Shown here piece after piece: positions 43,931 through 64,000 of a DNA stretch of 64,000 nucleotides. The notes under the pieces were generated by a model. It saw nothing but the letters and a program-made list of their open reading frames with translations. It had not been told where the DNA came from and searched no databases. Source of the DNA: Mesorhizobium sp. B4-1-4 (lineage in GTDB: Bacteria > Pseudomonadota > Alphaproteobacteria > Rhizobiales > Rhizobiaceae); contig NZ_CP083950.1 in NCBI RefSeq assembly GCF_006439395.2, positions 3,968,001 through 4,032,000 on the forward strand, read 5' to 3'. How positions within the stretch are numbered: the first letter of the stretch is position 1; each line of letters opens with the position of its first letter. The position numbers were made by a program, and so were the translations under genes.

Positions 43931-44167
43931 TCTGGAATTGCGCCAAACAAAGGGAAGCGGACCCAGGCGCCGATCCCGGGCAAATCGCAGCCAACCCGAA
44001 GACCGCCCCGCCTTCACGTTACCGAGATTTAATGTGCACGATTGCGTGATAATTGCCATAAACCAGTGATACCGGGATGTGGCTTGGCCGGTTCCGCCGC
44101 CAGCCCGTATCGTCGCCGCGTCCGCTTCCACCGGGAACCGGCCGACATCCTTGCCGCTGGAGTATCG

Positions 44168-45328
44168 ATGCCGAGCCGGAAACAGATTGCCCTTGCATTT
44201 GTTATCGTGGTCGCCGCCGCGGCTGCCTGGGCTCGCTTCTATCCCGGCGCTCCCGAAGTGCTGGCGCGCTGGGGCATCGACTGGGCTTATGGCGCGACAC
44301 CTCCAACAAAGGATGCGGCGGCGGGCGGCTCCCGGCAGGCGGGACGCAGCGGCGCCCGGATCGCCACCATCGTTGCATCGCCGGCCGCCTCGGCGATCAT
44401 CAACGATCGCCTGCAGGCGATCGGCACCGGCCGTGCCAACGCTTCTGTGACCGTCAATCCCTACAGTTCAGGCCGCCTCGCCGAACTGCTGGTGGAATCC
44501 GGCACTCATGTCGACAAAGGACAGATCATCGCGGCGCTCGATTCCGAAACCGAGATCATCGCTCTGGACCGGGCCAAGCTCGCTTTGCAGGATGCCCAGT
44601 CCAAGCTCGATCGCGTCAAGTCGCTGCGCGCCTCCAATGCCGCGACGCCGGTCGCCGTGGCCGATGCCGAAGTGGCACTGGCGAACGCCAAACTGGCGCT
44701 TCAGGACGCGGAGCTCGCGCTACGGCGCCGCTCCGTTCTGGCGCCTATATCGGGCACTGTCGGCATCCTGCCGATCTCGGCCGGCAATTATGTCACCACC
44801 CAGTCGGCGATCGCCACCCTCGACGACCGCTCCTCGATCCTGGTCGATTTCCAGGTGCCTGAGCGCTTCGCCGCCGCCGTCAAGGTTGGTGCGCAATTGA
44901 CGGCGACGCCGATCGCCAATCCGAGCAACGCCTATACCGGCACGGTGTCAGCCATCGACAACCATATCGACGAGAAGAGCCGCACGCTGCTGGTCAAGGC
45001 CAAGATCGGCAATCCGGCCGATTCGCTGCGCGCCGGCATGTCGTTCTCCATCACCATGAAATTCCCCGGCGAAACCTATCCCGCCGTCAGTCCGCTGGCG
45101 ATCCTGTGGGGGTCGGACGGCGCCTATGTCTGGCAGATCGAGGATGGCAAGGCCAAGCGCGTGCCGGTGCGCATCATCCAGCGCAACACCGAGACCGTGC
45201 TGATCGATGCCGAGATCGACAGCGGCGACATGGTGGTCACCGAAGGCACGCAAAGCGTCAGCGAAGGCGGCGAGGTCCGCATCGCCGGCCAGGACCAGCG
45301 CAACGCCAATACCGCCGAAGGCTCATGA
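44168..45328 (+). CDS. RND efflux periplasmic adaptor (HlyD/AcrA type)
   Basis: This 386-residue adaptor starts at ATG 44168 after CTGGAG; upstream in-frame sequence is not coding. It has one N-terminal anchor (ALAFVIVVAAAAAWARF), then lipoyl halves (VTVNPYSSGRLAELLVESG), a helical hairpin near residues 130-180 (LALQDAQSKLDRVKSLRASN) and beta-barrel domains. It links the inner-membrane RND pump to an outer-membrane channel, which is not encoded here. Its stop overlaps the pump gene start by four bases. Confidence 0.92.
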   Translation: MPSRKQIALAFVIVVAAAAAWARFYPGAPEVLARWGIDWAYGATPPTKDAAAGGSRQAGRSGARIATIVASPAASAIINDRLQAIGTGRANASVTVNPYSSGRLAELLVESGTHVDKGQIIAALDSETEIIALDRAKLALQDAQSKLDRVKSLRASNAATPVAVADAEVALANAKLALQDAELALRRRSVLAPISGTVGILPISAGNYVTTQSAIATLDDRSSILVDFQVPERFAAAVKVGAQLTATPIANPSNAYTGTVSAIDNHIDEKSRTLLVKAKIGNPADSLRAGMSFSITMKFPGETYPAVSPLAILWGSDGAYVWQIEDGKAKRVPVRIIQRNTETVLIDAEIDSGDMVVTEGTQSVSEGGEVRIAGQDQRNANTAEGS

Positions 45329-48300
45329 CCGGTACCGTCAACGCCGCCAGCGATACCGGCTTCACCGCCCTGTTCATCCGCAGGCCGGTCATGGCCTTCG
45401 TGCTGAACGTGCTCATCGCGGTTGCCGGCCTCGCCGCCTTCTATGGCGTGGAGGTCCGCGAACTGCCCGACGTCGACCGCGCTGTGGTCACGGTCACGAC
45501 CACCTTCGAAGGGGCGGCCGCCGAAACCGTTGACCGCGAGCTGACCGACACGATCGAGGGTGCGGTCGCCCGCGTCTCCGGCGTCAAGTCGATCTCTTCT
45601 TCCTCCTCCTTTGGCCAGAGCCGCGTCACCATCGAATTCAGCGACGGCATCGACCTTAATGTGGCTGCTTCCGATGTGCGCGATGCCGTCGGCCGCGTCG
45701 CCAACCAGATGCCGGACACCGCCGATCCGCCGCGCATCGTCAAGGCGGACGCCAATTCCGACGCGGTGATGCGGCTTGCGGTGACCTCGGACAGCATGTC
45801 GATCCAGGACATGACAGTGGTGGTTCAGGATCAGATCGAGGATGAGCTAGCCGCCGTGCCCGGCGTCGCCGACGTCCAGGTCTATGGCGGCCGCGACAAG
45901 ATCTTCCGCATCGATGTCGACCAGAACAAGCTCGCCAGTCTTGGCTTCACCGTCGCCGATCTCAGGGCGGCCCTTGCCTCGGTCGCCTTCGATTCGCCGG
46001 CCGGGTCGATCACCACGACCAACCAGGACCTGATCGTCCGTACCACGGCTGATGTGACCACCCCCGAGGAATTCGAAACCATCATCATCGGCGGCACGAC
46101 GCGCATCCGCGATGTCGCCACCGTCACGCTCGGCCCCGATGTCGGCCAGACCACGCTGCGTTCCGACGGCAAGACCGGCATCGGTATCGGCATCATCCGC
46201 CAGGCGGAATCGAACACGTTGGATATTTCGACCGGCGTCCAGGCCGCCATCGCCAAACTGCAGCAGAACCTGCCCAAGGGCATGGCGATCAAGATCACCA
46301 GCGACGACGCCGTGTTCGTCAAGGGCGCGGTGCACGAGGTCGAGATCGCGCTCGGCCTGTCGGTGACAATGGTGCTGATCGTCATCTATGCCTTCCTGCT
46401 CGACTGGCGCGCCACGCTGATCCCGGGCCTGTCGATGCCGGTCGCCATGATCGGCACCATCGCCGCCATCTATCTGGCCGGCTTCTCGGTTAACATCCTG
46501 ACGCTGCTCGCGCTTGTGCTGGCGACGGGCCTTGTCGTCGACGACGCCATCGTCGTCCTGGAAAACATCGTGCGCCGCCGCAACGAAGGCATGGGGCCCC
46601 GCGCCGCTGCCGTGCTTGGTGCGCGGGAGGTGTTCTTCGCCGTCGTCGCCACGACGCTGACGCTGGTCGCCGTCTTCGTGCCGATCTCGTTCCTGCCCGG
46701 CCAGACCGGCGGCCTGTTCCGCGAATTCGGCTTCGTGCTAGCCATGTCGGTGCTTCTGTCCTGCGTGGTGGCGCTGACGCTTTGCCCGATGCTCGCTTCG
46801 CGCATGCTGACCAGCGCATCGCTGCATCATCAAGGCGGCCATGGCATCGGCGCCCGTATCGGCGGCGCGTTGAACGCTGGCTACAAGCGGGCCCTGCACG
46901 CTTGCCTCGATGCGCCCTGGATCGTGATGCTTGTCGCGGTGCTGTTTGCCGGCACCGCCTTCACCCTGTTCGGCACCATCCGCCAGGAACTGACGCCGAC
47001 CGAGGACCGCGCGGCGGTGCTGTTGCGCATCAATGCCCCGCAAGGCGTCAGCCTCGACTACACGACGCAGCAGATGCGGAAGATCGAGAAGCTGATCCAG
47101 CCGATGCGCGATTCCGGCGAGATCCGCTCCACCTTCGAGAACGCCGGTCAGAACGGCTCCTACAACTCCGGCTTCATGGTGATGACGCTGGCGCCATGGA
47201 ACGAGCGCAGCCGCAGCCAGCAGGAAATCATGGCCGAGATCAGCCAGCTGACCAGGCAGGTGCCCAGCGTGCGCATCTTCCCGGTGCAGCCCAACAGCCT
47301 CGGCATCCGCGGGGCCGGCAACGGCCTGCAGTTCGCGCTGGTCGGCAACGACCGCAAGGCGCTCGGCGACGCGGCGATCAGGATCATCGCCGAGATGCAG
47401 AAGGATCCGCGGTTCCAGACGCCGCGCCTGTCCATCGACCCGACGCAGCCGCAGCTTGCCGTCGCCATCGACCGCGAGCGCGCCTCCGATCTCGGCATCG
47501 ACATTACGGGCCTCGCCAATACCTTGCAGGCCATGCTCGACGGCAACGACGTCGTCGACGTCTACATCGCCGACCGCAGCTATGGCGTGAAGCTGGTCTC
47601 GACCACCAACCCGATCAACGATCCGACCGACCTGGAAAATATCTTCCTGAAGACGGCTGACGGCCGCTTCGTGCCGATGTCGACCATCGCCACGCTGACC
47701 GAACGCGCCGTGCCGCCGTCGCTGTCGCGCGAACAGCAGCAGCCGTCGGTGGCCATCACCTCCAACCTCAGCGGCAATTTCGCACTTGGTGATGCGCTGA
47801 CGCGCGCCGAGGAAATCGCCACGCCGCTCTTGCCGCCTGGCAGCCGCATCCTGCCGCTGGCCGAAGCCGCGACGCTGGGCGAGACCAACAGCGCCATGGT
47901 CACCATCTTCGGTTTCGCGCTGGTCATCATCCTTCTGGTGCTGGCCGCCCAGTTCGAAAGCTTCGTCAGCGCGGTCATCATCATGGCCACGGTGCCGCTC
48001 GGCCTCGCCTGCGCCATCTTCGCGCTGCTGCTGTCTGGCACCAGCCTCAACGCCTACAGCCAGATCGGCCTGGTGCTGCTGGTCGGCGTCATGGCCAAGA
48101 ACGGCATCCTGATCGTCGAGTTCGCCAACCAGCTGCGCGATCGCGGGCTCGGCGTGCGCGAGGCGGTCGAGCAGGCCTCGACCATCCGCCTGCGGCCGGT
48201 GATGATGACGATGATCTGCACCGTGCTCGGCGGCGTGCCGCTGGTGCTGGCGGCCGGCGCGGGCGCCGAAGCGCGCGTGGCGCTCGGCTGGGTGATCGTC

Positions 48301-48456
48301 GGCGGGCTGGGGCTGGCCACCATCTCGACGCTCTTCCTGACGCCGGTCGCCTATCTGCTGCTTGGCCGTTTCGTTACGCCGAAGACCCACGAGGAAGCGC
48401 GGCTGAAGCGCGAGCTCGAGGAAGCCGCCTACGCCAATGTGGAACCGGCGGAATAG
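45325..48456 (+). CDS. RND efflux transporter permease subunit
   Basis: This 1043-residue pump has the full two-repeat RND architecture, each repeat with six helices and a large periplasmic loop. The start is ATG 45325, coupled to the adaptor gene. The proton-relay Asp pair is visible in TGLVVDDAIVVLENIVRR. The opening FTALFIRRPVMAFVLNVLIA is typical. It exports drugs, phenolics or metabolites using the proton gradient and is of the MdtB/C-like HAE1 class. No local regulator is seen; the upstream 272-bp spacer presumably holds the promoter. Confidence 0.94.
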   Translation: MTGTVNAASDTGFTALFIRRPVMAFVLNVLIAVAGLAAFYGVEVRELPDVDRAVVTVTTTFEGAAAETVDRELTDTIEGAVARVSGVKSISSSSSFGQSRVTIEFSDGIDLNVAASDVRDAVGRVANQMPDTADPPRIVKADANSDAVMRLAVTSDSMSIQDMTVVVQDQIEDELAAVPGVADVQVYGGRDKIFRIDVDQNKLASLGFTVADLRAALASVAFDSPAGSITTTNQDLIVRTTADVTTPEEFETIIIGGTTRIRDVATVTLGPDVGQTTLRSDGKTGIGIGIIRQAESNTLDISTGVQAAIAKLQQNLPKGMAIKITSDDAVFVKGAVHEVEIALGLSVTMVLIVIYAFLLDWRATLIPGLSMPVAMIGTIAAIYLAGFSVNILTLLALVLATGLVVDDAIVVLENIVRRRNEGMGPRAAAVLGAREVFFAVVATTLTLVAVFVPISFLPGQTGGLFREFGFVLAMSVLLSCVVALTLCPMLASRMLTSASLHHQGGHGIGARIGGALNAGYKRALHACLDAPWIVMLVAVLFAGTAFTLFGTIRQELTPTEDRAAVLLRINAPQGVSLDYTTQQMRKIEKLIQPMRDSGEIRSTFENAGQNGSYNSGFMVMTLAPWNERSRSQQEIMAEISQLTRQVPSVRIFPVQPNSLGIRGAGNGLQFALVGNDRKALGDAAIRIIAEMQKDPRFQTPRLSIDPTQPQLAVAIDRERASDLGIDITGLANTLQAMLDGNDVVDVYIADRSYGVKLVSTTNPINDPTDLENIFLKTADGRFVPMSTIATLTERAVPPSLSREQQQPSVAITSNLSGNFALGDALTRAEEIATPLLPPGSRILPLAEAATLGETNSAMVTIFGFALVIILLVLAAQFESFVSAVIIMATVPLGLACAIFALLLSGTSLNAYSQIGLVLLVGVMAKNGILIVEFANQLRDRGLGVREAVEQASTIRLRPVMMTMICTVLGGVPLVLAAGAGAEARVALGWVIVGGLGLATISTLFLTPVAYLLLGRFVTPKTHEEARLKRELEEAAYANVEPAE

Positions 48457-52038: not shown

Positions 52039-53076
52039 TCAAGGCCGGATGAAAACCTTGCCGTTCGGCTTGGCCAGTTCACCCGGCACCCGCGTCACCG
52101 CCTCGGCGAGCGGCACGACAGCCGTCACGTCGGTCGACCAGCGTCCGTCGGAGAAACGCTTCTGGGCTTCCAGGATCGCAGGACCGCGCCGATCCTTGTA
52201 TTGCCGCATCCATTCGCTCAGCCAGAAGCCTTCGATATGTTTGTGCTGGAAGATCAGCTGACCGGGCTCGCGGATGATGGTGGGGTCGGGATCGAGCCGG
52301 CCATAGATGATCCACCGCGCCCGTTTCGGCATCGCATTGAAGATGGCTGACGCCAGCGGACCGGTGACCGCGTCCAGCAAGATGCGTGGCTGTTCGGCCT
52401 TCATCACCTCGCGCAGCGAGGCTTCGAAATCCGGCGCCTTCTCGTTGAGCACATGGGCAGCGCCGATCTCCTTCAGAAGCGCGATCTGCTCATCGCGGCG
52501 CACGGTGACGACAGCCCGGAACCCCTCCTCCCTGGCCAGGCCGATGATCAGCTTGCAGAGCTGGCTGGCGCCGGCGGTCATGACGAAGGCCTTTTCGCCC
52601 TCCTGCTTGACGATGTCGAACATGGCGATCGCGGTAAGCGGATTGACGATCATCGCCGCACCATCCTCGTCGCGCACCGTATCGAGGAGCGGAATGCAGG
52701 CCGCCGCCTCGGCAACGGCATACTCGGCCCACGAGCCCCAGTTGCTGAGGCCTGTGGCGAAGGCCACGCGCTTTCCGACAAGGCTCTTGGGATAAGGCTC
52801 GTCGCCGCCGGCCACGACGGTGCCGACGCCCTCGAAGCCGGCCGGCCGGCCCTTGGCGCGCGGCTGGCCATACTGGCCCTTGATGAAGGCGACATCGGAT
52901 GGATTGATCGAGGCCAGACTGACCTTGATCAGCGCCTGGCTCGGTCCTGGCGTTGGCACCGCGATGCTGCCCGGCTGAAGATAAGGCTCCATTGCCTCAA
53001 GCATGCTGCCGCTCGGCGTCTTGGTGTAACCATCACCGACAAGCAGCAGTGCCTTCATCTGGGACGGGACGGTCAT
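52039..53076 (-). CDS. zinc-independent MDR / quinone oxidoreductase-like protein
   Basis: This 345-residue medium-chain dehydrogenase starts at ATG 53076 (MTVPSQMKALLLVGDGYTKT) with GAGGGA upstream. The nucleotide-binding region is AFVMTAGASQLCKLIIGLAR. The usual structural and catalytic zinc ligands are not evident, which fits the quinone-oxidoreductase or enoyl-reductase branch using NADPH. It lies downstream of the acyl-CoA dehydrogenase gene on the same strand, so a role in acyl-CoA or enone reduction is possible. Confidence 0.85.
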   Translation of the reverse strand: MTVPSQMKALLLVGDGYTKTPSGSMLEAMEPYLQPGSIAVPTPGPSQALIKVSLASINPSDVAFIKGQYGQPRAKGRPAGFEGVGTVVAGGDEPYPKSLVGKRVAFATGLSNWGSWAEYAVAEAAACIPLLDTVRDEDGAAMIVNPLTAIAMFDIVKQEGEKAFVMTAGASQLCKLIIGLAREEGFRAVVTVRRDEQIALLKEIGAAHVLNEKAPDFEASLREVMKAEQPRILLDAVTGPLASAIFNAMPKRARWIIYGRLDPDPTIIREPGQLIFQHKHIEGFWLSEWMRQYKDRRGPAILEAQKRFSDGRWSTDVTAVVPLAEAVTRVPGELAKPNGKVFIRP

Positions 53077-53134
53077 CGGAATAATCCCTCTTTGCTGGCG
53101 GAGAGATCGCAACGGGCCGGGATTGACCGGGCGC

Positions 53135-54376
53135 TCAGATCTTCTCCTGTGTGTATTTCTTCAGCTCCGTGCGCGCCACCTGCCGCCGATGCACGGCGTC
53201 CGGCCCATCGGCAAGACGCAAGGTTCTGAGATGCGTCCACGAGCGGGCCAGCGGCGTGTCCTGGCTGATGCCTTGCGCCCCGAACATCTGCACCGCCTCG
53301 TCGGTGACTTTCAGCGCGACGCGCGGTGCGATCACCTTGATCTGGCTGATCCAGGGAGCCGCGGCGCGCGCATCGCCCTGGTCGATCATCCACGCCGCCT
53401 TGAGGCACAGCAGCCGGGCCATCTCGATCTCCATGCGGCATTCGGCGATGATGTCGAAATTGGCGCCGAGTTTCGCCAGGGGCTGGCCGAAGGCCTCGCG
53501 GCGGACCGAACGCTGGCACAGCATCTCCAGCGCCATCTCGGCCTGGCCGATGGCGCGCATGCAATGATGGATACGGCCGGGGCCGAGCCGGCCCTGCGCG
53601 ATCTCGAACCCCCTGCCCTCGCCGAGGATCAGGTTCGATGCCGGTACCCGGACATTGTCGAAGCGAAGGTGCATGTGGCCATGCGGCGCGTCATCGTCGC
53701 CATAGACCTGCATGGCGCGGACCTTGGTCACGCCTTTCGTGCCGGCAGGCACCAGGATCATCGAATGGCGGCGGTGCTGCGGCTCCCCGTCGCCGCCAGT
53801 CCGCACCATGACGATGTAGATGGCGCAGCGCGGATCGCCCGCGCCCGATGCCCACCATTTCTCGCCATTGAGCACATAGTCGTCGCCCTGCCGCTCGCAG
53901 CGCATGGCGATGTTGGTGGCGTCGGACGAGGCGACGTCCGGCTCGGTCATCAGATAGGCCGAGCGGATCTTGCCGTCGAGCAGCGGCTCGAGCCATGCCT
54001 GCTTGTGGTCTGCCGAGCCGAAGCGCTCCAGCACCTCCATATTGCCGGTGTCGGGCGCCGAGCAGTTGAAGGTTTCGGCACCGAGATGCGCCTTGCCCAT
54101 TTCTTCTGCAAGATAGGCGTATTCGACAGTGGAAAGGCCATAACCGCGTCCCGAGCCGGTCAGCCAGAAATTCCACAGGCCGCGCTCTCTCGCGGTTTTC
54201 TTCAGCCCTTCGAGGATCTCGCTCTGGCGCTTGCTGTAGACCCAGCGGTCGCCCGCCTTGCCGACTTCGCCCAGAAATTCCTTGTCGAGCGGCATGATCT
54301 CGTCGCGCACCATGGCCGCGACACGCGTGTGGATCAGCTTCAGCCGCTCGGTCATGCCGAGATTCATCTCCGTCAT
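53135..54376 (-). CDS. acyl-CoA dehydrogenase (ACAD10/11, LvaC-like)
   Basis: This 413-residue flavoprotein has AYLMTEPDVASSDATNIAMR (FAD/substrate contact), DYVLNGEKWWASGAGDPRCA and a C-terminal VQMFGAQGISQDTPLARSW helix with the RTLRLADGPDAVHRR FAD-binding end. It matches the ACAD10/11-type dehydrogenases that are genetically linked to APH-fold kinases, one of which is at 55829. It is divergent from the SDR-MaoC-kinase operon across 115 bp. Confidence 0.92.
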   Translation of the reverse strand: MTEMNLGMTERLKLIHTRVAAMVRDEIMPLDKEFLGEVGKAGDRWVYSKRQSEILEGLKKTARERGLWNFWLTGSGRGYGLSTVEYAYLAEEMGKAHLGAETFNCSAPDTGNMEVLERFGSADHKQAWLEPLLDGKIRSAYLMTEPDVASSDATNIAMRCERQGDDYVLNGEKWWASGAGDPRCAIYIVMVRTGGDGEPQHRRHSMILVPAGTKGVTKVRAMQVYGDDDAPHGHMHLRFDNVRVPASNLILGEGRGFEIAQGRLGPGRIHHCMRAIGQAEMALEMLCQRSVRREAFGQPLAKLGANFDIIAECRMEIEMARLLCLKAAWMIDQGDARAAAPWISQIKVIAPRVALKVTDEAVQMFGAQGISQDTPLARSWTHLRTLRLADGPDAVHRRQVARTELKKYTQEKI

Positions 54377-54491
54377 CGGTCGCTAACCCTTCATGCAAGC
54401 CGGGCATTTTGTCAGTGGCAAGGATGACCGCACTTCGGATAGCCTTGTCAACGCGAACCGTTTGCCCGCATGCCGAGCGCGGAGGATTGTG

Positions 54492-55307
54492 ATGAGCTAT
54501 CTCGACGAGCTGTTTTCGGTAGCCGGCAAGACCGCGCTGGTGACGGGAGCAGCGACCGGCATTGGCCGCATGGCGGCGACCGCGCTGGTCAGGGCGGGAG
54601 CCAGCGTGATGATCGCGTCGCGCAAGGGCGAGGATTGCATCAAGGTCGCCGGCGAGTTGAACGCGCTCGGCGCTTCTGGCCGCGCCGAGGGCTTTGCCGG
54701 CGACGTTTCCAGCGAAGCCGGCATCGCTGCGCTCATCGCCGAGGTCAAGGCGCGGACCGACAGGCTCGATATCCTCGTCAACAATGCCGGCGTTTCCTGG
54801 GGCGCGCCGCTGGAGAGTTTTCCCTACTCGGCCTGGGCCAAGGTGCTTGGCGTCAACGTTACCGCTGTCTTCCATCTGACGCGCGAATTGCTGCCGCTGC
54901 TCGAAGCGGCGGCCAGCGACGACGATCCGGCCCGGGTGATCAATCTGGGTTCGGTGATGGGCACGCAGCCCTTGGCCGACGATGCCTATTCCTACGCCGC
55001 CTCCAAGGCCGCCGTTCATCATCTGACACGCACGTTGGCGCTTGAGTTCGCCGCCCGCCGCATCACCGTCAACGCCTTCGCGCCGGGGCCTTTCCAGAGC
55101 CGCATGACGGCGTTTGCAACGGCTACTGAGGAACAGGCCCGGCATGTCGGCAGCCATGTTCCGATCGGCCGCATCGGCGCGCCAGATGACATTGCCGGCG
55201 CAACGCTCTATTTGTGCAGCCGTGCGGGCAGCTATGTCACCGGCGCCATCCTGCCGATCGACGGCGGGCAGTCGGTGCAGCATGGATTGACCCTGTTCAA
55301 GGAATGA
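54492..55307 (+). CDS. SDR family oxidoreductase
   Basis: This 271-residue classical SDR starts at ATG 54492 with GGAGG seven bases upstream. The cofactor site is VTGAATGIGRMAATA, the central strand NNAGVSWGAPL and the active site Ser in INLGSVMG plus YSYAASK. It resembles RhlG/FabG-type 3-hydroxyacyl reductases, so it could oxidise the 3-hydroxyacyl-CoA formed by the MaoC hydratase encoded 39 bases downstream. Confidence 0.91.
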   Translation: MSYLDELFSVAGKTALVTGAATGIGRMAATALVRAGASVMIASRKGEDCIKVAGELNALGASGRAEGFAGDVSSEAGIAALIAEVKARTDRLDILVNNAGVSWGAPLESFPYSAWAKVLGVNVTAVFHLTRELLPLLEAAASDDDPARVINLGSVMGTQPLADDAYSYAASKAAVHHLTRTLALEFAARRITVNAFAPGPFQSRMTAFATATEEQARHVGSHVPIGRIGAPDDIAGATLYLCSRAGSYVTGAILPIDGGQSVQHGLTLFKE

Positions 55308-55346
55308 CATGTTCCGGCCGCAGAAGCCGGAGGTGAACTGGAGGAC

Positions 55347-55832
55347 ATGAGCGTGGAACCGATCAGTCTCGATGTGCTTCTGGCCAGTGTCGGCAAGGAA
55401 GTCGGCGTCTCACCGTGGCGTGTGGTCACGCAACGCATGATAGACCAGTTCGCCGACGCCACGGACGACCATCAGTTCATCCATTGCGATCCGGAGCGGG
55501 CCAAGCGCGAGACGCCGTTCGGCGGCACCATCGCGCATGGCTTCCTGTCGCTGTCGCTGTTGTCGGCTATGACCTTCGAGACCATGCCGCCGCTGGAAAA
55601 TGGCAAGATGGGCGTCAATCACGGCTTCGATTCGCTGCGCTTCCTGGCACCGGTCAAGACCGGCGCCCGCATCCGCACCCATTTCGTGCTCGCCGACGTC
55701 AAGGTCCGGCCGTCGGGCTGGGTGCAGACAGCGCACGATGTGACCATCGAGATCGAGGGATCGAAGAAACCGGCGCTGACCGCCCGCTGGCTGACGCTGA
55801 CCCTGATCGAACGCCAGCCTGAGACCGCATGA
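55347..55832 (+). CDS. MaoC-like (R)-enoyl-CoA hydratase
   Basis: This 161-residue hotdog protein has the hydratase dyad in QFADATDDHQFIHCDPERAK (Asp and His), followed by TIAHGFLSLSLLSAM. It hydrates enoyl-CoA to (R)-3-hydroxyacyl-CoA. A GTG/ATG pair around 55347 follows GGAGG. The stop overlaps the kinase-like gene by four bases. Confidence 0.92.
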   Translation: MSVEPISLDVLLASVGKEVGVSPWRVVTQRMIDQFADATDDHQFIHCDPERAKRETPFGGTIAHGFLSLSLLSAMTFETMPPLENGKMGVNHGFDSLRFLAPVKTGARIRTHFVLADVKVRPSGWVQTAHDVTIEIEGSKKPALTARWLTLTLIERQPETA

Positions 55833-56863
55833 ACGACGCCATCGCGCTCGACCAGGCAGCGCTCGCGCCTTACCTCGAGGCGGCAATACCGGGCTTTTCC
55901 GGGCTCGCTACGATCGAGAAATTCAAATCCGGCCAGTCCAACCCGACCTATCTGATGACGGCGGCCAGCGGCCGCTATGTGCTGCGCGCCAAGCCACCGG
56001 GGCGGTTGCTGAAATCGGCGCATCAGGTCGACCGCGAATTCCGCGTGATGAAAGCGCTTTCCGGCACCGCCGTGCCGGTGCCGAAAATGCTGCATCTGTC
56101 GGCCGAGGAGTCGCCGATCGGCCGCATGTTCCACGTCATGGATTTCCTCGACGGCCGCATCTTCTGGGATCCGGCACTGCCGGAGGCGCGCGACAATGAC
56201 GAGCGCGCCGCGATTTACGATGCCATGAACGCCACGCTCGCGGCCCTGCACGATGTCGACGTCGAGGCCGTGGGCCTGTCCGATTTCGGCCGGCCGGGCA
56301 ATTATTTCGAGCGCCAGCTGGCACGCTGGACCAGCCAGTACCGTGCCTCGGAAACCGGCACCATCGCCGACATGAACCAGCTGATCGCCTGGCTGGAAAC
56401 GCATATGCCCGCCGATGATGGCCTGATATCGCTGGTGCATGGCGACTATCGGCTGGACAATCTGATCTTCGCGCCGGACCGGCCAAAGATGCTGGCGGTG
56501 CTTGACTGGGAACTCTCGACATTGGGCCACCCCTTCGCCGACATCGCCTATCAGTGCATGCAATGGCGCCTGCCGCACGCCTCCGGCTTTCGCGGCTTGG
56601 GCGGTATCGACCGCGCCGCCCTCGGGCTGCCCTCGGAAGAGGACTATGTCGCGGCCTACTGTCGCCGGCGCGGGCTCTCCGGCATCGGCAACTGGACCTT
56701 CTTCCTCGCCTTCTCCTTCTTCAGGCTGGCCGCGATCTGTCAGGGCGTCTACAAGCGGGCGCTCGACGGCAACGCCTCCAATCCTGAAAAGGCCAAAACC
56801 TACGGCGAGGCGGTGAAGCTGCTTTCGCATCTCGCCGCCAGACTGATTGAGGACAAGGCATGA
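55829..56863 (+). CDS. APH-type phosphotransferase (ACAD10 N-domain/LvaA-like)
   Basis: This 344-residue kinase fold shows the APH catalytic motif VHGDYRLDNLIF (HGD...N) and the metal-binding Asp in LAVLDWELSTLG. The glycine-poor N lobe starts EKFKSGQSNPTYLMTAASGR. In levulinate catabolism LvaA-type kinases phosphorylate 4-hydroxyacyl-CoA so that a partner acyl-CoA dehydrogenase can eliminate phosphate; mammalian ACAD10/11 fuse both activities. Here the two genes are divergent neighbours. Its stop overlaps the start of a tiny SDR remnant by ATGA. Confidence 0.9.
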   Translation: MNDAIALDQAALAPYLEAAIPGFSGLATIEKFKSGQSNPTYLMTAASGRYVLRAKPPGRLLKSAHQVDREFRVMKALSGTAVPVPKMLHLSAEESPIGRMFHVMDFLDGRIFWDPALPEARDNDERAAIYDAMNATLAALHDVDVEAVGLSDFGRPGNYFERQLARWTSQYRASETGTIADMNQLIAWLETHMPADDGLISLVHGDYRLDNLIFAPDRPKMLAVLDWELSTLGHPFADIAYQCMQWRLPHASGFRGLGGIDRAALGLPSEEDYVAAYCRRRGLSGIGNWTFFLAFSFFRLAAICQGVYKRALDGNASNPEKAKTYGEAVKLLSHLAARLIEDKA

Positions 56864-56991
56864 CGGACAGCTTTGAGGGAGCAACGGTGCTGATCACAGA
56901 TGCCGCCGGAGGTCTCGGCCGCGGTGCCGCGAAAGGCTCCTTCATGACCGGGCACGCACTGGCCGTCGATGGCGGCGTCGGCGCCATCTGA
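56860..56991 (+). pseudogene. internally deleted SDR gene (43-residue fusion of both ends)
   Basis: The ORF starts MTDSFEGATVLITDAAGGLG, an SDR N terminus with a TGxxGxG-like loop, then jumps directly to SFMTGHALAVDGGVGAI, an SDR C terminus, and stops. About 200 residues including the NNAG strand and the Ser-Tyr-Lys catalytic set are missing. The ATGA overlap with the kinase gene shows the original gene was coupled in this operon. The product should be inactive. Confidence 0.8.
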
Positions 56992-57020
56992 TACCTACCG
57001 CTTGGGAACAGTCGATGCCC

Positions 57021-57048
57021 TTGTTCGTTTCCGTACAGCGTATATAAT
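57021..57048 (+). promoter_or_regulatory. promoter of the tetR gene
   Basis: TTGTTC (57021-57026) and TATAAT (57043-57048) are separated by 16 bases, with a CCGTACAGCGTATA motif in the spacer that partly resembles the palindromes downstream of tetR. Confidence 0.5.
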
Positions 57049-57082
57049 TAGCCACGTACACCAACCAAAAGAGGCACCAGAC

Positions 57083-57727
57083 TTGCCGCTGAGCGTCCAG
57101 AAACGCCGCGCGAAACAAAAGGCCGAACTGCGCTCCGAGCTCGTCGAGGCCGCGCACAAGCTTGTGCAGGAAGAAGGCTATGAAGGCCTGACCATCCGCA
57201 AGCTGGCCAAGCGGGTCGGCTATGCGCCGATGTCGGTCTATTCCTATTTCGCCGACAAGCAGGACATCCTGTTCGCGCTGGCCGAAGATGCGTTCGAGAC
57301 GCTTGCCCGACGCATCGAGGAGCACCCGTCCGACGATCCGATCGAGGCCTTGCAGGCTGTGATGACCGAGTATGCCGCGTTCGGGCTCGGCAATCCCAAC
57401 GAATACCGCACCGTCTTCATGACCGAAAAGACCAAACTGCCGGAAGGCAGGAGCTATGAAGACATGGAGGAAGGCAACCCAGCGATGAAAGTGCTCATCA
57501 AAAGGGTCGAAGCCTGTGTCGCCGCCGGGAAATTGCAGGGCGATCCGCGCGCCATCGCCACCATGCTGTGGGCTGTCGGCCACGGCACGATCTCGCTGCT
57601 GATCACCTTTCCCTTCTACCCCTTCGGCGACCCGCAGGCTTTCGTGAAACGGATGTGCGATTTCACCCTTGCCACGCTGAGCACGCAAGACGTGCCACCG
57701 CTGACCGAGACGCCGGTCAACTGCTGA
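57083..57727 (+). CDS. TetR/AcrR family transcriptional regulator
   Basis: This 214-residue repressor starts at TTG 57083, with AAGAGG upstream; the longer in-frame opening at 56969 would cover the promoter. The HTH is LTIRKLAKRVGYAPMSVYSY followed by FADKQ, the classic TetR pattern. The C-terminal domain has a WHG-like segment (MLWAVGHGTISLLITFPFYP). It is next to the acyl-CoA cluster and to a small secreted-protein gene with two matching palindromes, which are its likely targets. Confidence 0.9.
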   Translation: MPLSVQKRRAKQKAELRSELVEAAHKLVQEEGYEGLTIRKLAKRVGYAPMSVYSYFADKQDILFALAEDAFETLARRIEEHPSDDPIEALQAVMTEYAAFGLGNPNEYRTVFMTEKTKLPEGRSYEDMEEGNPAMKVLIKRVEACVAAGKLQGDPRAIATMLWAVGHGTISLLITFPFYPFGDPQAFVKRMCDFTLATLSTQDVPPLTETPVNC

Positions 57728-58204: not shown

Positions 58205-59257
58205 TCAGGCGATCGTCAGCGGTCGCCTGGCAGCAGAACTCTCAAAGGCCGCGTCGATCAGCTTCTGCATGTCGGCGGCGCGCCGGAAGGACGGATCGCC
58301 GTTGAGGCCGGTGTTCAGCGCTTCGGCAAAGCGCCGGGCGTTGCGCTTGACATCCGGCGGCGTCAGCGTCCGCCAGCGTTGCTGGTCGACATCCTTGCCG
58401 AGGCAAGCTGACAGGCTTGATACCTTGCCATCGGTCTCGACCTTGATGGCTCCCTTGGTGCCGTGCATGGCCAGCGACAGCTCATTGGTGTTGCCGGTCA
58501 TGTAGCGGCTCGCCACGATCGTGGCGAGCGCGCCCGACTTCAGCCGCGCCGTCATCGCCACGCTGTCATTGGCATCCAGCACGTAGTCGCCGATCCGGTC
58601 GCCGTCGGCCTTGGGAAACGTCACCAGATCGGCATGGAGACTGACGATATCCTCCGCCGCGCCGTAGGTGGCGAAGTCCAGTATGTGGATACCGACATCG
58701 CCCAGCACGCCTGTCGAACCATGCCGGCTCGACAGGCGCCACAGCCATTTGTCCTCGACCCGCCAGTCGCCCCAGGATTTGCTGACCAGCCAACTCTGCT
58801 TGTAGCTCGCCTCGACATGGCGCAAATCGCCGATCTCGCCGGCCTGCACCATGCGCCGCGCTTCCTGGATCGCGGGCGAGTTGCGATAGGTCAGGTTGAC
58901 CATGTTAACGACCCCGGCCGCCTCGGCCGCTTCCGTCATCGCCAGCGCATCGGCGTGGTTCGGCGCCAGAGGCTTTTCGCAGAAAATGTGCTTTTCCGTA
59001 GCCAGCAGGGCCAGCGTCGTTGCCTTGTGCACGCCGTCCGGCGTCGCATTGATGGCAGCATCGAACTGCCCCCAGGCGATCGCCGCCTCCAGGCTCTCGA
59101 AGAAATCGCCGATCCTGTTGGCGGCGGCAAACGCCGCCGCGCGGCCCGGCACCTGATCGACACAAGCGACGATCGTGCAGCCGGGAATCGCGGCAAATTC
59201 CTCGACGTGATGCCCGGCAATGCCGCCGGTGCCAAGCAGAAGCAGCCTGTGTGTCAT
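58205..59257 (-). CDS. Gfo/Idh/MocA family oxidoreductase
   Basis: This 350-residue enzyme has LLLGTGGIAGHHVEEFAAIP at the N terminus (Rossmann glycines), the CEKPLAPNHADALAMTEAAE motif and VLGDVGIHILDFATYGAAED in the catalytic domain. It lies 45 bases downstream of a ThuA-like gene, recalling thuA-thuB, where ThuB-type enzymes oxidise disaccharides at C3. The substrate here could be a trehalose-like or other sugar. It ends close to the convergent secreted-protein gene. Confidence 0.88.
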   Translation of the reverse strand: MTHRLLLLGTGGIAGHHVEEFAAIPGCTIVACVDQVPGRAAAFAAANRIGDFFESLEAAIAWGQFDAAINATPDGVHKATTLALLATEKHIFCEKPLAPNHADALAMTEAAEAAGVVNMVNLTYRNSPAIQEARRMVQAGEIGDLRHVEASYKQSWLVSKSWGDWRVEDKWLWRLSSRHGSTGVLGDVGIHILDFATYGAAEDIVSLHADLVTFPKADGDRIGDYVLDANDSVAMTARLKSGALATIVASRYMTGNTNELSLAMHGTKGAIKVETDGKVSSLSACLGKDVDQQRWRTLTPPDVKRNARRFAEALNTGLNGDPSFRRAADMQKLIDAAFESSAARRPLTIA

Positions 59258-59302
59258 CGGCCCAAGCCCCTCATCAACTCACCCCAGGCAACTCAGCCCC
59301 GA

Positions 59303-60088
59303 TCAGCTCATGCCCTTGTCGCCGTCGGCATGCAGGCGTAGGCCCTTTTGGACAATCTTCTCCTTGGCCTTGTCGGCCGGCACGTTGGGCGCATCAGTGA
59401 TGCCGGCCCATGCCGGTGCCGGGTTGTGCGCCCAGTGCACGGCGTTGCGCAGCACCTGCTGCACGCCCTCATTGTGATAGATCGGATAGGTCTCGTGGCC
59501 GGGCGAGAAATAAAAGATGCGGCCGGCGCCGCGCTGATAGGTCAGCCCCGACCGGAACACCTCGCCGCCCTCATACCAGGAGATGAACACTGTCTCGAGC
59601 GGCTCCGGCACCGCGAACGGCTCGCCATACATTTCGGTCTCGCCGATCTCCAGGCATTCGCCGATGCCTTGCGCGATCGGGTGACCGCGGTTGATCGCCC
59701 AGACGCGCTCGCGCTCGCCCGCCTCGCGCCATTTCAGCGAGCAGGGCGTGCCCATCAGCCGCTTGAATATCTTCGAGTAGTGGCCGGAATGGAGCACGAT
59801 CAGCCCCATGCCTTCCCAGACCCGCTTCTGCACGCGCTCGACGACCTCATCCTTGACCTCGCCATGCGCTGCATGCCCCCACCATAGAAGCACGTCGGTG
59901 GCGGCAAGGCGCTTTTCGCTCAGGCCATGCTCCGGTTCCTGCAAGGTGGCAGCGGTCGCCTCGATGCCCTTGTCCTGGTTGAGCGCGGCCGCGATGGTGC
60001 CATGCATGCCAAGGGGATAGAGGCCGCGCACGGTGGCATTGGTCTGCTCATGGACGTTCTCACCCCAGACAATGGCTCTTATCGTCAT
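59303..60088 (-). CDS. thuA: ThuA-like trehalose utilisation family protein
   Basis: This 261-residue protein starts at ATG 60088 ([20 protein letters not shown]) with GGGAAAG upstream. [20 protein letters not shown] and [20 protein letters not shown] are diagnostic of ThuA and its class I glutamine-amidotransferase-like fold. ThuA works with a Gfo/Idh partner in 3-keto-disaccharide metabolism. No thuEFGK transporter is adjacent, so it may serve another sugar than trehalose. Confidence 0.87.
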
Positions 60089-60167
60089 CTTTCCCTCTCC
60101 AAAGCGCTTTGAATATCGCATCCACTGAGGTGCTGGGAAGATGCCTCTCAACCAAAATTTCTCAAAA

Positions 60168-61040
<873 letters not shown>

Positions 61041-61048
<8 letters not shown>

Positions 61049-64000
61049 TGAGGCGCCCTCCCGTCTCGTCGAAGAACACCATGCCGGTAACCTCCACTTC
61101 GATCACCCCGTTCGGCATCGGCACGTAAAGCGTGTCGCCCATCCGGTCACGGCCGCCGGCGACCAGCGCCAACGCTATGGAACGGCCGCAATTCTGCGAC
61201 CAGTAGCTCGAGGTGACATGGCCGATCATCTTCATCGGGATCGCCTGTTTGGGATCCTCGACGATCTGCGCGCCCTCTTCCAGAACCACCTTGGGATCCT
61301 TGGTCTTGAGGCCAACCAGTTGCTTGCGGCCCTTGGCGACCAGGTCCGGCCGCATCATGCCCCTGATGCCGACAAAGTCGGTCTTCCTTTTGCCGACCGC
61401 CCAGTCGAGACCGGCGTCGTTCGGCGTCACCGTGCCATCCGTGTCCTGGCCGACGATGATGTAGCCCTTCTCGGCGCGCAGCACGTGCATGGCCTCGGTT
61501 CCGTAGGCGGTGGCGCCATGCTTCTGGCCTTCGGCCCACAGCGCCGCCCATACGGCCTGGCCGTAATCGGCCGGCACGTTGACTTCGAAGCCGCGCTCGC
61601 CGGTGAACGACATGCGGAACAGTCTGGTCGGCACGCCGCAGATCTTGCCTTCGCGCACCGACATATGCGGCAGCGCCTCGTCGGACATGTCTATGCCTTC
61701 GACCAAGGGTTCGATAATCTTCCGCGCGCTCGGCCCCTGCACGGCGATGACCGCCCATTGCTCGGTGATCGAGGTCAGCCAGACATTCAAATGCGGGAAT
61801 TCGGTCTGGAGATAGTCCTCCATATGGTTCATGACGCGCGGTGCGCCACCAGTCGTCGTCGTCACGTGGAAACGGTCCGGCGCCAGCCTGCCGACGACGC
61901 CGTCATCATAGATGAAGCCGTCCTCGCGCAGCATGATGCCATAGCGGCAACGGCCGGGCTCCAGCTTCTCCCACGGGTTGGTGTAGAGCAGTTCCATGAA
62001 CTTGGCGGCATCCGGCCCGACCACTTCGATCTTGCCCAGTGTCGAGGCGTCGAACAGGCCTGCCTGGTTACGGACGGCGACGCATTCGCGGTCGACCGCG
62101 GCATGCATGTCTTCGCCGGCCTTGGGGAAATACCAGGCGCGCTTCCACTGGCCGACATCCTCGAACACGGCACCATGTGCCTCTGCCCACGGATGGATCG
62201 CCGTCTTGCGCGTCGGATCGAACAGCGGCCCGCGCGCATGGCTGACGATCGCGCCGAAGGTGACAGGCGTGTAAGGCGCGCGGAACGTGGTCAGGCCGAC
62301 CTCCGGGATCGGCTTGCCCAGCGTTTCCGCCGCGATCGCCAGTCCATGCATGTTGGAGGTCTTGCCCTGGTCGGTCGCCATGCCGTTGGTGGTGAAGCGC
62401 TTGACGTGCTCGATCGAGCGCATGCCTTCATGCACCGCCTGGCGGATGTCCTTGGCGGTAACGTCGTTCTGGAAATCGACGAAGGCCTTCACCGTCGTCT
62501 CCGGCCCGGCCCCCGGCGCGGCACCCAGCATGCCGCGCGACCAGTTCTCCGAGGCATCGACCTTCGGCTTCGTGCCCTTGGCGGTTTTGGCGCCGGCATC
62601 CTTGGCCGCCTTGGCGCCCGCCGCATAGGCCTCGTCCACCGTGGCCGACAAGCCGTCGGTGCCGTTGCAAGCGCCGACCGAGACGCAGTCCTGCGCATAG
62701 GTGCCCGGCACGAAGCGCTGGGTCTCGTCGTTGAAGGCGACCTTGCCGCGCGACTGCGAGAACAAATGCACCGACGGCGTCCAGCCGGCCGACATCAGGA
62801 TTGCATCGACGGGAATGGTGCGCTCGCCGCCGCCATTCTTTGGCTGCACCGTCATCGACGCCACGCGCAGTTTGCCGCCGGCGCGGATCACCGCGCGGCC
62901 GAAATTGATCTCGATGCCGAGCGCCCTTGCCTCGTCGATCACCGGACCGGTCGGATTGTCGCGCAGGTCGACGATCGCCGCGACATTGACGCCGGCCTTC
63001 TTCAGGTCGATCGCCGCCGCGTAAGCCGAGTCATTGGCCGTATAGACGCCGACATTCCTGCCGACGGCCACGCCATAGTGGTTGAGGAAGGTGCGCGCCG
63101 CGCCCGCCAGCATGATGCCCGGCCGGTCATTGTTGGCGAACACCATATGGCGCTCGATGGCGCCGGAGGCCAGCACGACGCGCTTGGCGCGGACCTGCCA
63201 GAGCCGTTCGCGTGGCAGATCATGGCCAGGGGCTTTCAAATGATCGCTGACGCGCTCGACCAGGGCGACGAAATTCTGCGCGTAGTAACCGAACGCCGTG
63301 GTGCGCGGCAGCACGCGGACATTGTCCATCGCGCTCAGCCTGGCGATGGCCGCTTGCGCCCAGGCAAAACCGTCCTGGCCATCGATCTTCGCTCCACTCT
63401 CGAAACGCAGGCTGCCGCCAAACTCGGCCTGCTCGTCGGCCAGGATGACGCGTACGCCGGTCTCGGCCGCCGCAAGTGCCGCCGCGATGCCGGCGGCACC
63501 GCCGCCCAGCACCAGCACGTCGCAATGAGCATAGCGCGAGGAATAATGATCGGGATCAGGCTTGTTCGGAGAAACGCCAAGGCCGGCGGCTTCGCGGATC
63601 TTGGGTTCGTAGAGGCTCTTCCAGGCCGCCTTCGGCCACATGAAGGTCTTGTAGTAGAAGCCGGCCGAAAACATCGGTGACGCCAAGTCGTTGACCGCGC
63701 CGACATCGAAGGCGAGCGACGGCCAGCGGTTCTGCGAGTTGGCGGCGAGCCCGTCATAGAGCTCCTGCACGGTCGCGCGCACATTGGGCGTCTTGCGCGC
63801 GTCGTCGCGTACGATCTGCACCAACGCGTTGGGCTCTTCCGCGCCGGCGGACAGCACGCCGCGCGGCCGGTGGTATTTGAACGAGCGACCGACCAGATGC
63901 ACGCCATTGGCAAGCAGTGCCGAGGCCAGCGTGTCGCCCTCGATGCCGCTATAGGACCGGCCGTCGAAGCTGAACCGCGCGGTCTTGGCCTGGCTGAGGC
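61041..64000 (-). CDS. soxA: sarcosine oxidase alpha subunit, partial at window edge
   Basis: The gene is open to the last base of the window and lacks only its first few codons. Order of domains: a 2Fe-2S-like N-terminal segment (FSFDGRSYSGIEGDTLASAL, HLVGRSFKYHRPRG), a central NAD-binding flavoprotein region (CDVLVLGGGAAGIAAALAAA near residue 175), and a C-terminal aminomethyltransferase (GcvT)-like folate domain. It carries the NAD and tetrahydrofolate sites of the SoxBDAG complex. soxB and soxD are expected just beyond the right edge. Confidence 0.95.

Follow-up and report, generated by a model that had tools for sequence, protein, structure and literature searches.

The window analysed here is a 64,000-nucleotide stretch of DNA from the soil bacterium Mesorhizobium sp. 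B4-1-4, part of one 6.27-Mb chromosome, and the locus of interest is a cluster of six open reading frames without internal stops at positions 52039-57727. Two units diverge from a 115-bp gap: a gene for an acyl-CoA dehydrogenase (ACAD; CoA, coenzyme A) followed by one for a medium-chain dehydrogenase/reductase (MDR) on the minus strand, and genes for a short-chain dehydrogenase/reductase (SDR), a MaoC hydratase, an APH-fold kinase and a TetR-family regulator on the plus strand, the MaoC and kinase genes overlapping by 4 nt (Table 1). The initial annotation had described an APH-fold kinase paired with an ACAD10/11-like ACAD in the company of MaoC, SDR and MDR proteins, and Pfam returned the same names. 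Judged from sequence comparison, the locus is very probably a split bacterial version of ACAD11, i.e., a 4-hydroxyacyl-CoA kinase and a phosphate-eliminating ACAD encoded by separate genes; in mammals, both steps are carried out by the one protein ACAD11 in the breakdown of 4-hydroxy fatty acids. The true start of the MDR is most likely the ATG at 53076 rather than the TTG at 53112, because the solved orthologue 3pi7 aligns from 53076, and that of TetR is probably the TTG at 57083, because a 214-aa protein beginning MPLSVQ occurs in two relatives.

Table 1 Features of the divergent kinase-ACAD locus (window coordinates).
Feature	Coordinates	Strand	Basis
MDR oxidoreductase, resembles mitochondrial trans-2-enoyl-thioester reductase (MECR)	52039..53076	-	Pfam ADH_N/ADH_zinc_N; 3pi7 match
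ACAD10/11-LvaC-type acyl-CoA dehydrogenase, predicted 4-phosphoacyl-CoA phosphate-eliminating	53135..54376	-	ACAD domains; R-R-HCMR-D signature
Conserved 50-bp core, candidate shared promoter/operator	54407..54456		71-sequence alignment
SDR oxidoreductase, predicted 3-hydroxyacyl-CoA dehydrogenase / 3-oxoacyl reductase	54492..55307	+	Pfam adh_short; 2b4q match
MaoC hydratase, Rv0130-like, predicted (R)-specific enoyl-CoA hydratase	55347..55832	+	Pfam MaoC; 2c2i match
APH-fold kinase, ACAD10/11 type, predicted 4-hydroxyacyl-CoA kinase	55829..56863	+	Pfam APH E 1.4e-50; 3dxp/ACAD11 matches
TetR-family regulator	56969..57727	+	Pfam TetR_N + TetR_C_33

The top solved relatives of the window ACAD were 4hr3 and ACAD11 (E = 1e-117 to 1e-121, 4hr3 scoring highest); ordinary medium-chain ACADs (MCAD) matched at best with E = 9e-40. 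In mouse ACAD11, the 4-phosphate is held by R626, H634 and R637, the enzyme depends on its HCMR motif, and D753 acts as catalytic base (Rashan et al., PMC12440821). A signature of seven ACAD11 sites (R626, R631, H634, C635, M636, R637 and D753; all letters agree with PMC12440821) was surveyed in 137 distinct rows including mouse and window, after removal of duplicates and of alignments no longer than 230 residues. The window ACAD holds the complete R-R-H-C-M-R-D set, including the three phosphate-pocket residues, and has Asp in place of Glu at the D753 position (LRLADGPD). The full signature was carried by all 121 distinct locus rows at or above 45% identity (the window's own copy among them), by two of three rows at 33-44% identity and by none of 11 rows below 33%. 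The set was incomplete in each of the 12 other ACADs, five of which are ordinary paralogues from the window genome, and ordinary relatives showed no HCMR and mostly no Asp. A single ACAD of this type is encoded in the window genome, next to eight other matches at 23-36% identity, three of which failed the length filter of the survey. A quick tree was built from 43 rows after clustering at 80% and removal of rows shorter than 330 residues; in it, a 30-row group holding the window protein, mouse ACAD11 and 4hr3 stood apart from ordinary ACADs with Shimodaira-Hasegawa-like approximate likelihood ratio test (SH-aLRT) support of 100, and of 92 once two divergent signature-bearing rows were added. 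An ordinary ACAD identity was rejected, as the window protein has both HCMR and the Asp base. Further afield, two ACADs from other genomes (L166 and L210; 34% identity) retain the full signature, and an ACAD of 28% identity (L202:2708-3949), about 3 kb from an ACAD10/11-type kinase, keeps R626 and the Asp base with HCMR absent. The conservation of every 4-phosphate-contacting residue also bears on whether a related pair might act on another hydroxyacyl-CoA (5-hydroxy, ring-bearing or branched), with 4-hydroxy acids as side substrates only; although such a specificity would suit the broad closed hydrophobic cavity described for ACAD11 (PMC12440821) and the varied gene neighbourhoods of relatives, we consider it quite unlikely.

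For the kinase, the closest solved protein was 3dxp (E = 1.3e-110, 53% identity), and the kinase domain of mouse ACAD11 matched with E = 6e-80 and 43% identity. The catalytic D220 and N225 and the CoA-contacting R176 of ACAD11 are all kept in the window kinase, as is an arginine beside the alphaC glutamate (DREF). These three ACAD11 residues were present in 124 of 124 kinase rows outside a group linked to DUF6285 proteins, and R176 in none of the four rows inside it. Among 50 kinases placed in a tree after clustering at 82%, a 100/100 branch split the four DUF6285-linked ones from 46 others, among them the window protein, mouse ACAD11, 3dxp and 9o56. The phylogenetic check proposed in the initial annotation, run here against ACAD11 and solved proteins, thus placed both window proteins on the ACAD11 side of the trees. 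An aminoglycoside-resistance kinase was rejected on its score with the APH(3') model (41.6 bits vs a cut-off of 205), on tree placement and on co-occurrence with the ACAD (see below).

The DUF6285-linked kinases without R176 (L105, L106, L196 and L206) were aligned at 20-28% identity, and their small partner might, tentatively, supply CoA recognition. At L210:6931-9543, a signature-bearing ACAD of 34% identity is followed by a same-strand APH-type kinase (read from its translation) and then a DUF6285 gene, so the ACAD signature also pairs with kinases of this group. We tentatively take DUF6285 (PF19802) to be the LvaB family and do not claim the four linked kinases as LvaA.

Co-occurrence of the two proteins was examined in 150 genomes across Pseudomonadota using thresholds of E <= 1e-70 for the ACAD and E <= 1e-30 for the kinase. 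The ACAD was found in 36 genomes and the kinase in 37, with both in 36, the ACAD alone in none and the kinase alone in one (Fisher p = 6e-34 for a set of related genomes). Both genes lay within 10 kb of each other in 20 of the 36 genomes and not so in the remaining 16, so the dependence between kinase and ACAD is not just linkage. The kinase-only exception (G012), whose kinase match is listed with one stop codon, carries at locus L166 a full-signature ACAD of 34% identity that adjoins the kinase and falls under the ACAD threshold. Divergent pairs are missed in general at these thresholds, as in G016, where a signature ACAD of 34% identity lies directly beside a DUF6285-linked kinase (L210). 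The generic names given in databases (ACAD, APH) would also suit a set of ordinary beta-oxidation genes that adjoin an unrelated kinase of the aminoglycoside-resistance type. This explanation is highly improbable, given the low APH(3') score, the Asp and HCMR that set the ACAD apart from ordinary relatives, and the presence of the kinase in 36 of 36 ACAD genomes even when the genes are unlinked.

Of 199 confirmed related loci, the best 80 were kept; they belong to named Mesorhizobium or close relatives, and their kinases are 77-95% identical to that of the window. The ACAD, SDR, MaoC and kinase genes have identical order and orientation in 79 of the 80, the last being truncated at a contig end, and the grouping is therefore not due to chance. 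The full six-gene set is present in 70 loci; TetR was not found in six, MDR in one and both in two, some of these non-detections reflecting the limits of the fetched flank, and one cut contig shows the kinase alone. A second SDR gene lies directly 3' of the kinase in 56 of 80 loci, the window being among those without it. Across 81 surveyed genus genomes, a full-length orthologous kinase (at least 77% identity) and an orthologous ACAD (at least 88%, two matches being partial) were found in the same 63 genomes, and one further genome has a kinase fragment only. Six genus genomes without the main cluster (G173, G195, G207, G222, G224 and G232) hold a second type of pair, in which an ACAD (37-39% identity) immediately precedes a kinase (42-46% identity) on the same strand, with a gap below 160 bp in all six.

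For the SDR, the best solved match was 2b4q (E = 1.1e-67; next match 1.4e-42), a rhamnolipid 3-oxoacyl-acyl-carrier-protein reductase that we take to be RhlG, and the nearest solved relative of MaoC was 2c2i (Rv0130; E = 9.5e-33), presumably an (R)-specific enoyl-CoA hydratase. These matches suggest a route from enoyl-CoA through (R)-3-hydroxyacyl-CoA to 3-oxoacyl-CoA downstream of the kinase and ACAD. The MDR matched 3pi7 with E = 2.2e-215 over 345 aa, then 3iup (8.5e-29), after which the nearest solved proteins are mitochondrial trans-2-enoyl-thioester reductases (MECR, 1zsy; 1.4e-22). Between the divergent genes, 45 of 50 columns of the core are at least 90% identical across 71 sequences, vs 11 of the other 65 gap columns. 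Besides the window sequence, the alignment comprised 70 related loci out of 80; in nine of those omitted, the gap holds a second TetR gene, and the tenth is a cut contig. In the core, no known operator could be recognised. A promoter and terminator consensus scan gave 1 and 5 sites vs 1.1 and 4.1 in shuffled sequences.

By homology, the kinase would phosphorylate the 4-hydroxyl of a 4-hydroxyacyl-CoA in an ATP-dependent reaction, the acid probably having been activated by a general acyl-CoA ligase encoded elsewhere. The 4-phosphoacyl-CoA would be bound by the R-H-R side chains of the ACAD, whose catalytic Asp would remove the alpha proton while flavin adenine dinucleotide (FAD) transiently accepts a hydride; phosphate would then depart and the hydride be returned, yielding a 2-trans-enoyl-CoA with no net oxidation. 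For ACAD10/11, FAD has been proposed to take and return a hydride in this manner (Paquay et al., PMC11342911), and precedent for the function in bacteria comes from Pseudomonas putida LvaA/LvaC, as cited in PMC6692424 and PMC12440821. The conversion of 4-hydroxyacyl-CoA to 4-phosphoacyl-CoA and on to 2-enoyl-CoA, as proposed in the initial annotation, is most likely right, with support from the pocket residues, the catalytic Asp, the kinase residues (three of four mapped), both trees and the co-occurrence of the pair. More weakly, homology suggests that MaoC would hydrate the 2-trans-enoyl-CoA, probably to the (R)-3-hydroxyacyl-CoA, that the SDR would oxidize this to 3-oxoacyl-CoA and that a thiolase, presumably encoded elsewhere in the genome, would cleave the product. 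The MDR probably reduces a C=C bond, e.g., converting a 4-hydroxy-2-enoyl thioester to the 4-hydroxyacyl form needed by the kinase, and TetR with the single shared 50-bp control region may switch both divergent units.

A CoA ligase and a Liv-type transporter are present at the same locus in three of the 80 relatives (L076, L079 and L080; extended as L220-L222). In L220-L222, the ACAD is followed by a second MDR, the MDR, a Liv-type ABC transporter, a 629-631-aa AMP-binding ligase and a solute-binding protein (Pfam was run on L221 only), and the site adjoins the same RND-pump genes as the window cluster. At E <= 1e-60, no close relative of this ligase was found in the window genome, and three of 81 genus genomes matched at 32-34% identity; neither ligase nor transporter was seen in the fetched stretches of the nearest kinase outgroups (L180, L181 and L197). 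The window genome holds 18 strong AMP-binding matches elsewhere plus one fragment, and acid activation is therefore possible without a dedicated ligase gene. Eight plasmid regions were chosen from hit lists, of which two from Sulfitobacter, one from Bosea and one from Azoarcus hold the kinase, ACAD, a ligase and a thiolase, with a Liv-type transporter also on the Sulfitobacter and Bosea islands. Another of the eight, a Burkholderia arboris record, is unannotated at this place, and homology puts a kinase, an ACAD, a thiolase and a histidine phosphatase there.

Of 51 fetched regions, 40 hold a kinase, and in 11 (L182, L183, L184, L199, L211, L213, L216, L098, L099, L225 and L227) a histidine phosphatase gene sits no more than 1.4 kb from it. 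Over 0.89 Mb of sequence, every one of the 11 phosphatase matches is at most 2.5 kb away from a kinase, a zone covering 26% of the bases (binomial p = 4e-7), one of the 11 being the query itself and the regions being related and chosen around kinases or ACADs. The levulinate cluster of Pseudomonas citronellolis also has a histidine phosphatase (PMC6692424). This enzyme may recycle stray phospho-intermediates, a role first proposed for the HAD domain of ACAD10 and then barely found there.

Several points weigh against a 4-hydroxyacyl-CoA kinase and phosphate-eliminating ACAD at this locus. R86, as printed for ACAD11, aligns to F in the window kinase, with the nearby DREF arginine being conserved; the window kinase and mouse ACAD11 are not sisters in the kinase tree, which carried a long-branch warning and has a partly supported inner order; and the references in both trees were ACAD11 and solved proteins rather than P. 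putida LvaA/LvaC or the tested Burkholderia proteins. The Fisher p value above is inflated by kinship, the two genes falling in 26 and 27 of 87 genera. Among the plasmid regions, those of Ruegeria and Sphingobium hold kinase and ACAD with no ligase in the stretch, and Cupriavidus pHG1 has an ACAD of this type with no kinase in the 15 kb shown. The literature matches listed, with most subscription journals outside coverage, contained no activity, expression or fitness data for the cluster, and likewise nothing on Mesorhizobium with 4-hydroxy acids. On its face, the absence of a ligase, transporter or thiolase from the six-gene unit is a further difficulty. The initial annotation had noted the missing ligase and LvaB; the ligase is indeed absent from the unit, but neither point counts as evidence against the proposed chemistry, given a Burkholderia domain swap, a P. 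citronellolis levulinate cluster and the three relatives that carry a ligase. In the swap, two Burkholderia LvaA/LvaC orthologues replaced the ACAD10 domains in vitro and were judged to have the same function, and LvaB is never mentioned in the main text (Paquay et al., PMC11342911); for P. citronellolis, no lvaB homologue was found in the region analysed (PMC6692424). The three ligase-bearing relatives thus explain the absent ligase in part, and the argument "no ligase, so no pathway" was rejected on these relatives and on the AMP-binding genes elsewhere in the genome.

With regard to the natural substrate, the resemblance of the MDR to the 2-enoyl-thioester reductase MECR raises the possibility of clearance of 4-hydroxy-2-enals and oxylipin breakdown products, in which the MDR would saturate a 4-hydroxy-2-enoyl thioester at its 2,3 double bond, after which the 4-hydroxyl would be removed by the kinase and ACAD. 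Mammalian ACAD10/11 have been linked to 4-hydroxynonenal-derived acids (PMC12440821, PMC11342911), and the window version has neither dedicated ligase nor importer. However, the MDR substrate is guessed from similarity at E = 1e-22, and the transporter and ligase of three relatives suggest an imported nutrient, so that we hold clearance to be possible but doubtful. A broader and equally speculative proposal is a rhizobial pathway centred on this cluster, with 4-hydroxy-2-enals, oxylipins or gamma-lactones from plants or soil as its substrates. The 4-hydroxyacyl-CoA would be produced by the MECR-like MDR and would lose its hydroxyl through the kinase-ACAD pair; the Liv-type transporter and ligase of some relatives would supply the pathway with external substrate, and the histidine phosphatase next to the kinase in other bacteria would recycle stray phospho-intermediates.

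As for the surroundings, an RND efflux system lies on one side of the cluster at 44042-48456, with other genes between. On the other side (58205-63902) are one Gfo/Idh-like gene, one ThuA-like gene and then a large sarcosine-oxidase-like gene (61041-63902, minus strand), all these flank names being read from translations rather than family searches. The sarcosine-oxidase-like gene also lies downstream in 72 of 80 related loci, and among the transporter-bearing ones it was seen in the L079 and L080 flanks and not in the L076 flank.

With regard to known systems, the initial annotation had invoked both LvaA/LvaC and ACAD10/11; judged from sequence, the type of pair was correctly recognised, and the kinase proves to be of the ACAD10/11 type. 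At 43% identity to ACAD11, it is nearer to ACAD10/11 than LvaA is, for which 29% has been reported (Paquay et al., PMC11342911). The P. putida lva operon shares a kinase, an LvaC-type ACAD (by the common signature), an SDR and the same predicted phospho-intermediate, and differs in having LvaE, the sigma-54 regulator LvaR and LvaB, for none of which the window unit has a candidate. If the locus were itself a levulinate operon, the SDR would reduce levulinyl-CoA, and the kinase and ACAD would process 4-hydroxyvaleryl-CoA. Its kinase, ACAD and SDR content matches that of lva clusters, and levulinate may be activated by a general ligase, given that growth persisted in a P. putida lvaE mutant (PMC6692424). 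Against this, the six genes include TetR instead of a sigma-54 regulator and no ligase or symporter, the kinase is ACAD10/11-like, the SDR is closest among solved structures to a 3-oxoacyl reductase, and the transporter of the three transporter-bearing relatives is Liv-type, which together make a levulinate operon unlikely. A search for an lva operon in the family of G058 gave matches in 203 of 248 genomes, the 30 loci returned (1.5 kb on each side) showing no kinase or DUF6285 gene beside the ACAD; in plasmid searches, two DUF6285 proteins matched 12 and 2 records, of which several had a kinase next to the match and none came from Pseudomonas; and PF19802 had no match in the window genome.

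Mammalian ACAD11 and ACAD10 match in both domains (kinase 6e-80, 43%; ACAD about 1e-119) and share the pocket and catalytic residues. They are single fused proteins, whereas the window has two genes in divergent units, linked, unlike the mammalian forms, to MaoC, SDR, MDR and TetR, and without the HAD domain of ACAD10. The Sulfitobacter, Bosea and Azoarcus plasmid islands likewise combine a kinase and ACAD of this kind, but in contrast to the window unit they carry a CoA ligase and thiolase, with a Liv-type transporter on those of Sulfitobacter and Bosea and a histidine phosphatase on those of Sulfitobacter and Azoarcus. The closest solved proteins are known here by their deposited names, 3dxp (a kinase) and 4hr3 both as "putative acyl-CoA dehydrogenase" and 3pi7, near-identical to the window MDR, as an NADH oxidoreductase, a name that gives no specific function. 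Co-occurrence and the seven-residue signature could re-label many proteins now listed as "phosphotransferase family" or "acyl-CoA dehydrogenase family". Reports of ACAD10/11 chemistry date only from 2024-2025, and the unusual flavin mechanism still poses a question (PMC12440821, PMC11342911); the stand-alone bacterial kinase and ACAD offer simple single-domain proteins for this question, beside an MDR with a near-identical solved structure. Transporter- and ligase-bearing relatives provide a handle on natural substrates, whose origins are called largely unknown in the mammalian work (PMC12440821), and the 50-bp conserved core between the divergent genes and the histidine phosphatase recurring beside such kinases elsewhere are new details. 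Overall, the closest known kind is ACAD10/11, and the locus is probably not an lva operon; the system is widespread and its chemistry already explained in outline, and its interest lies in the clean signature, the split architecture and the substrate clues offered by its relatives.

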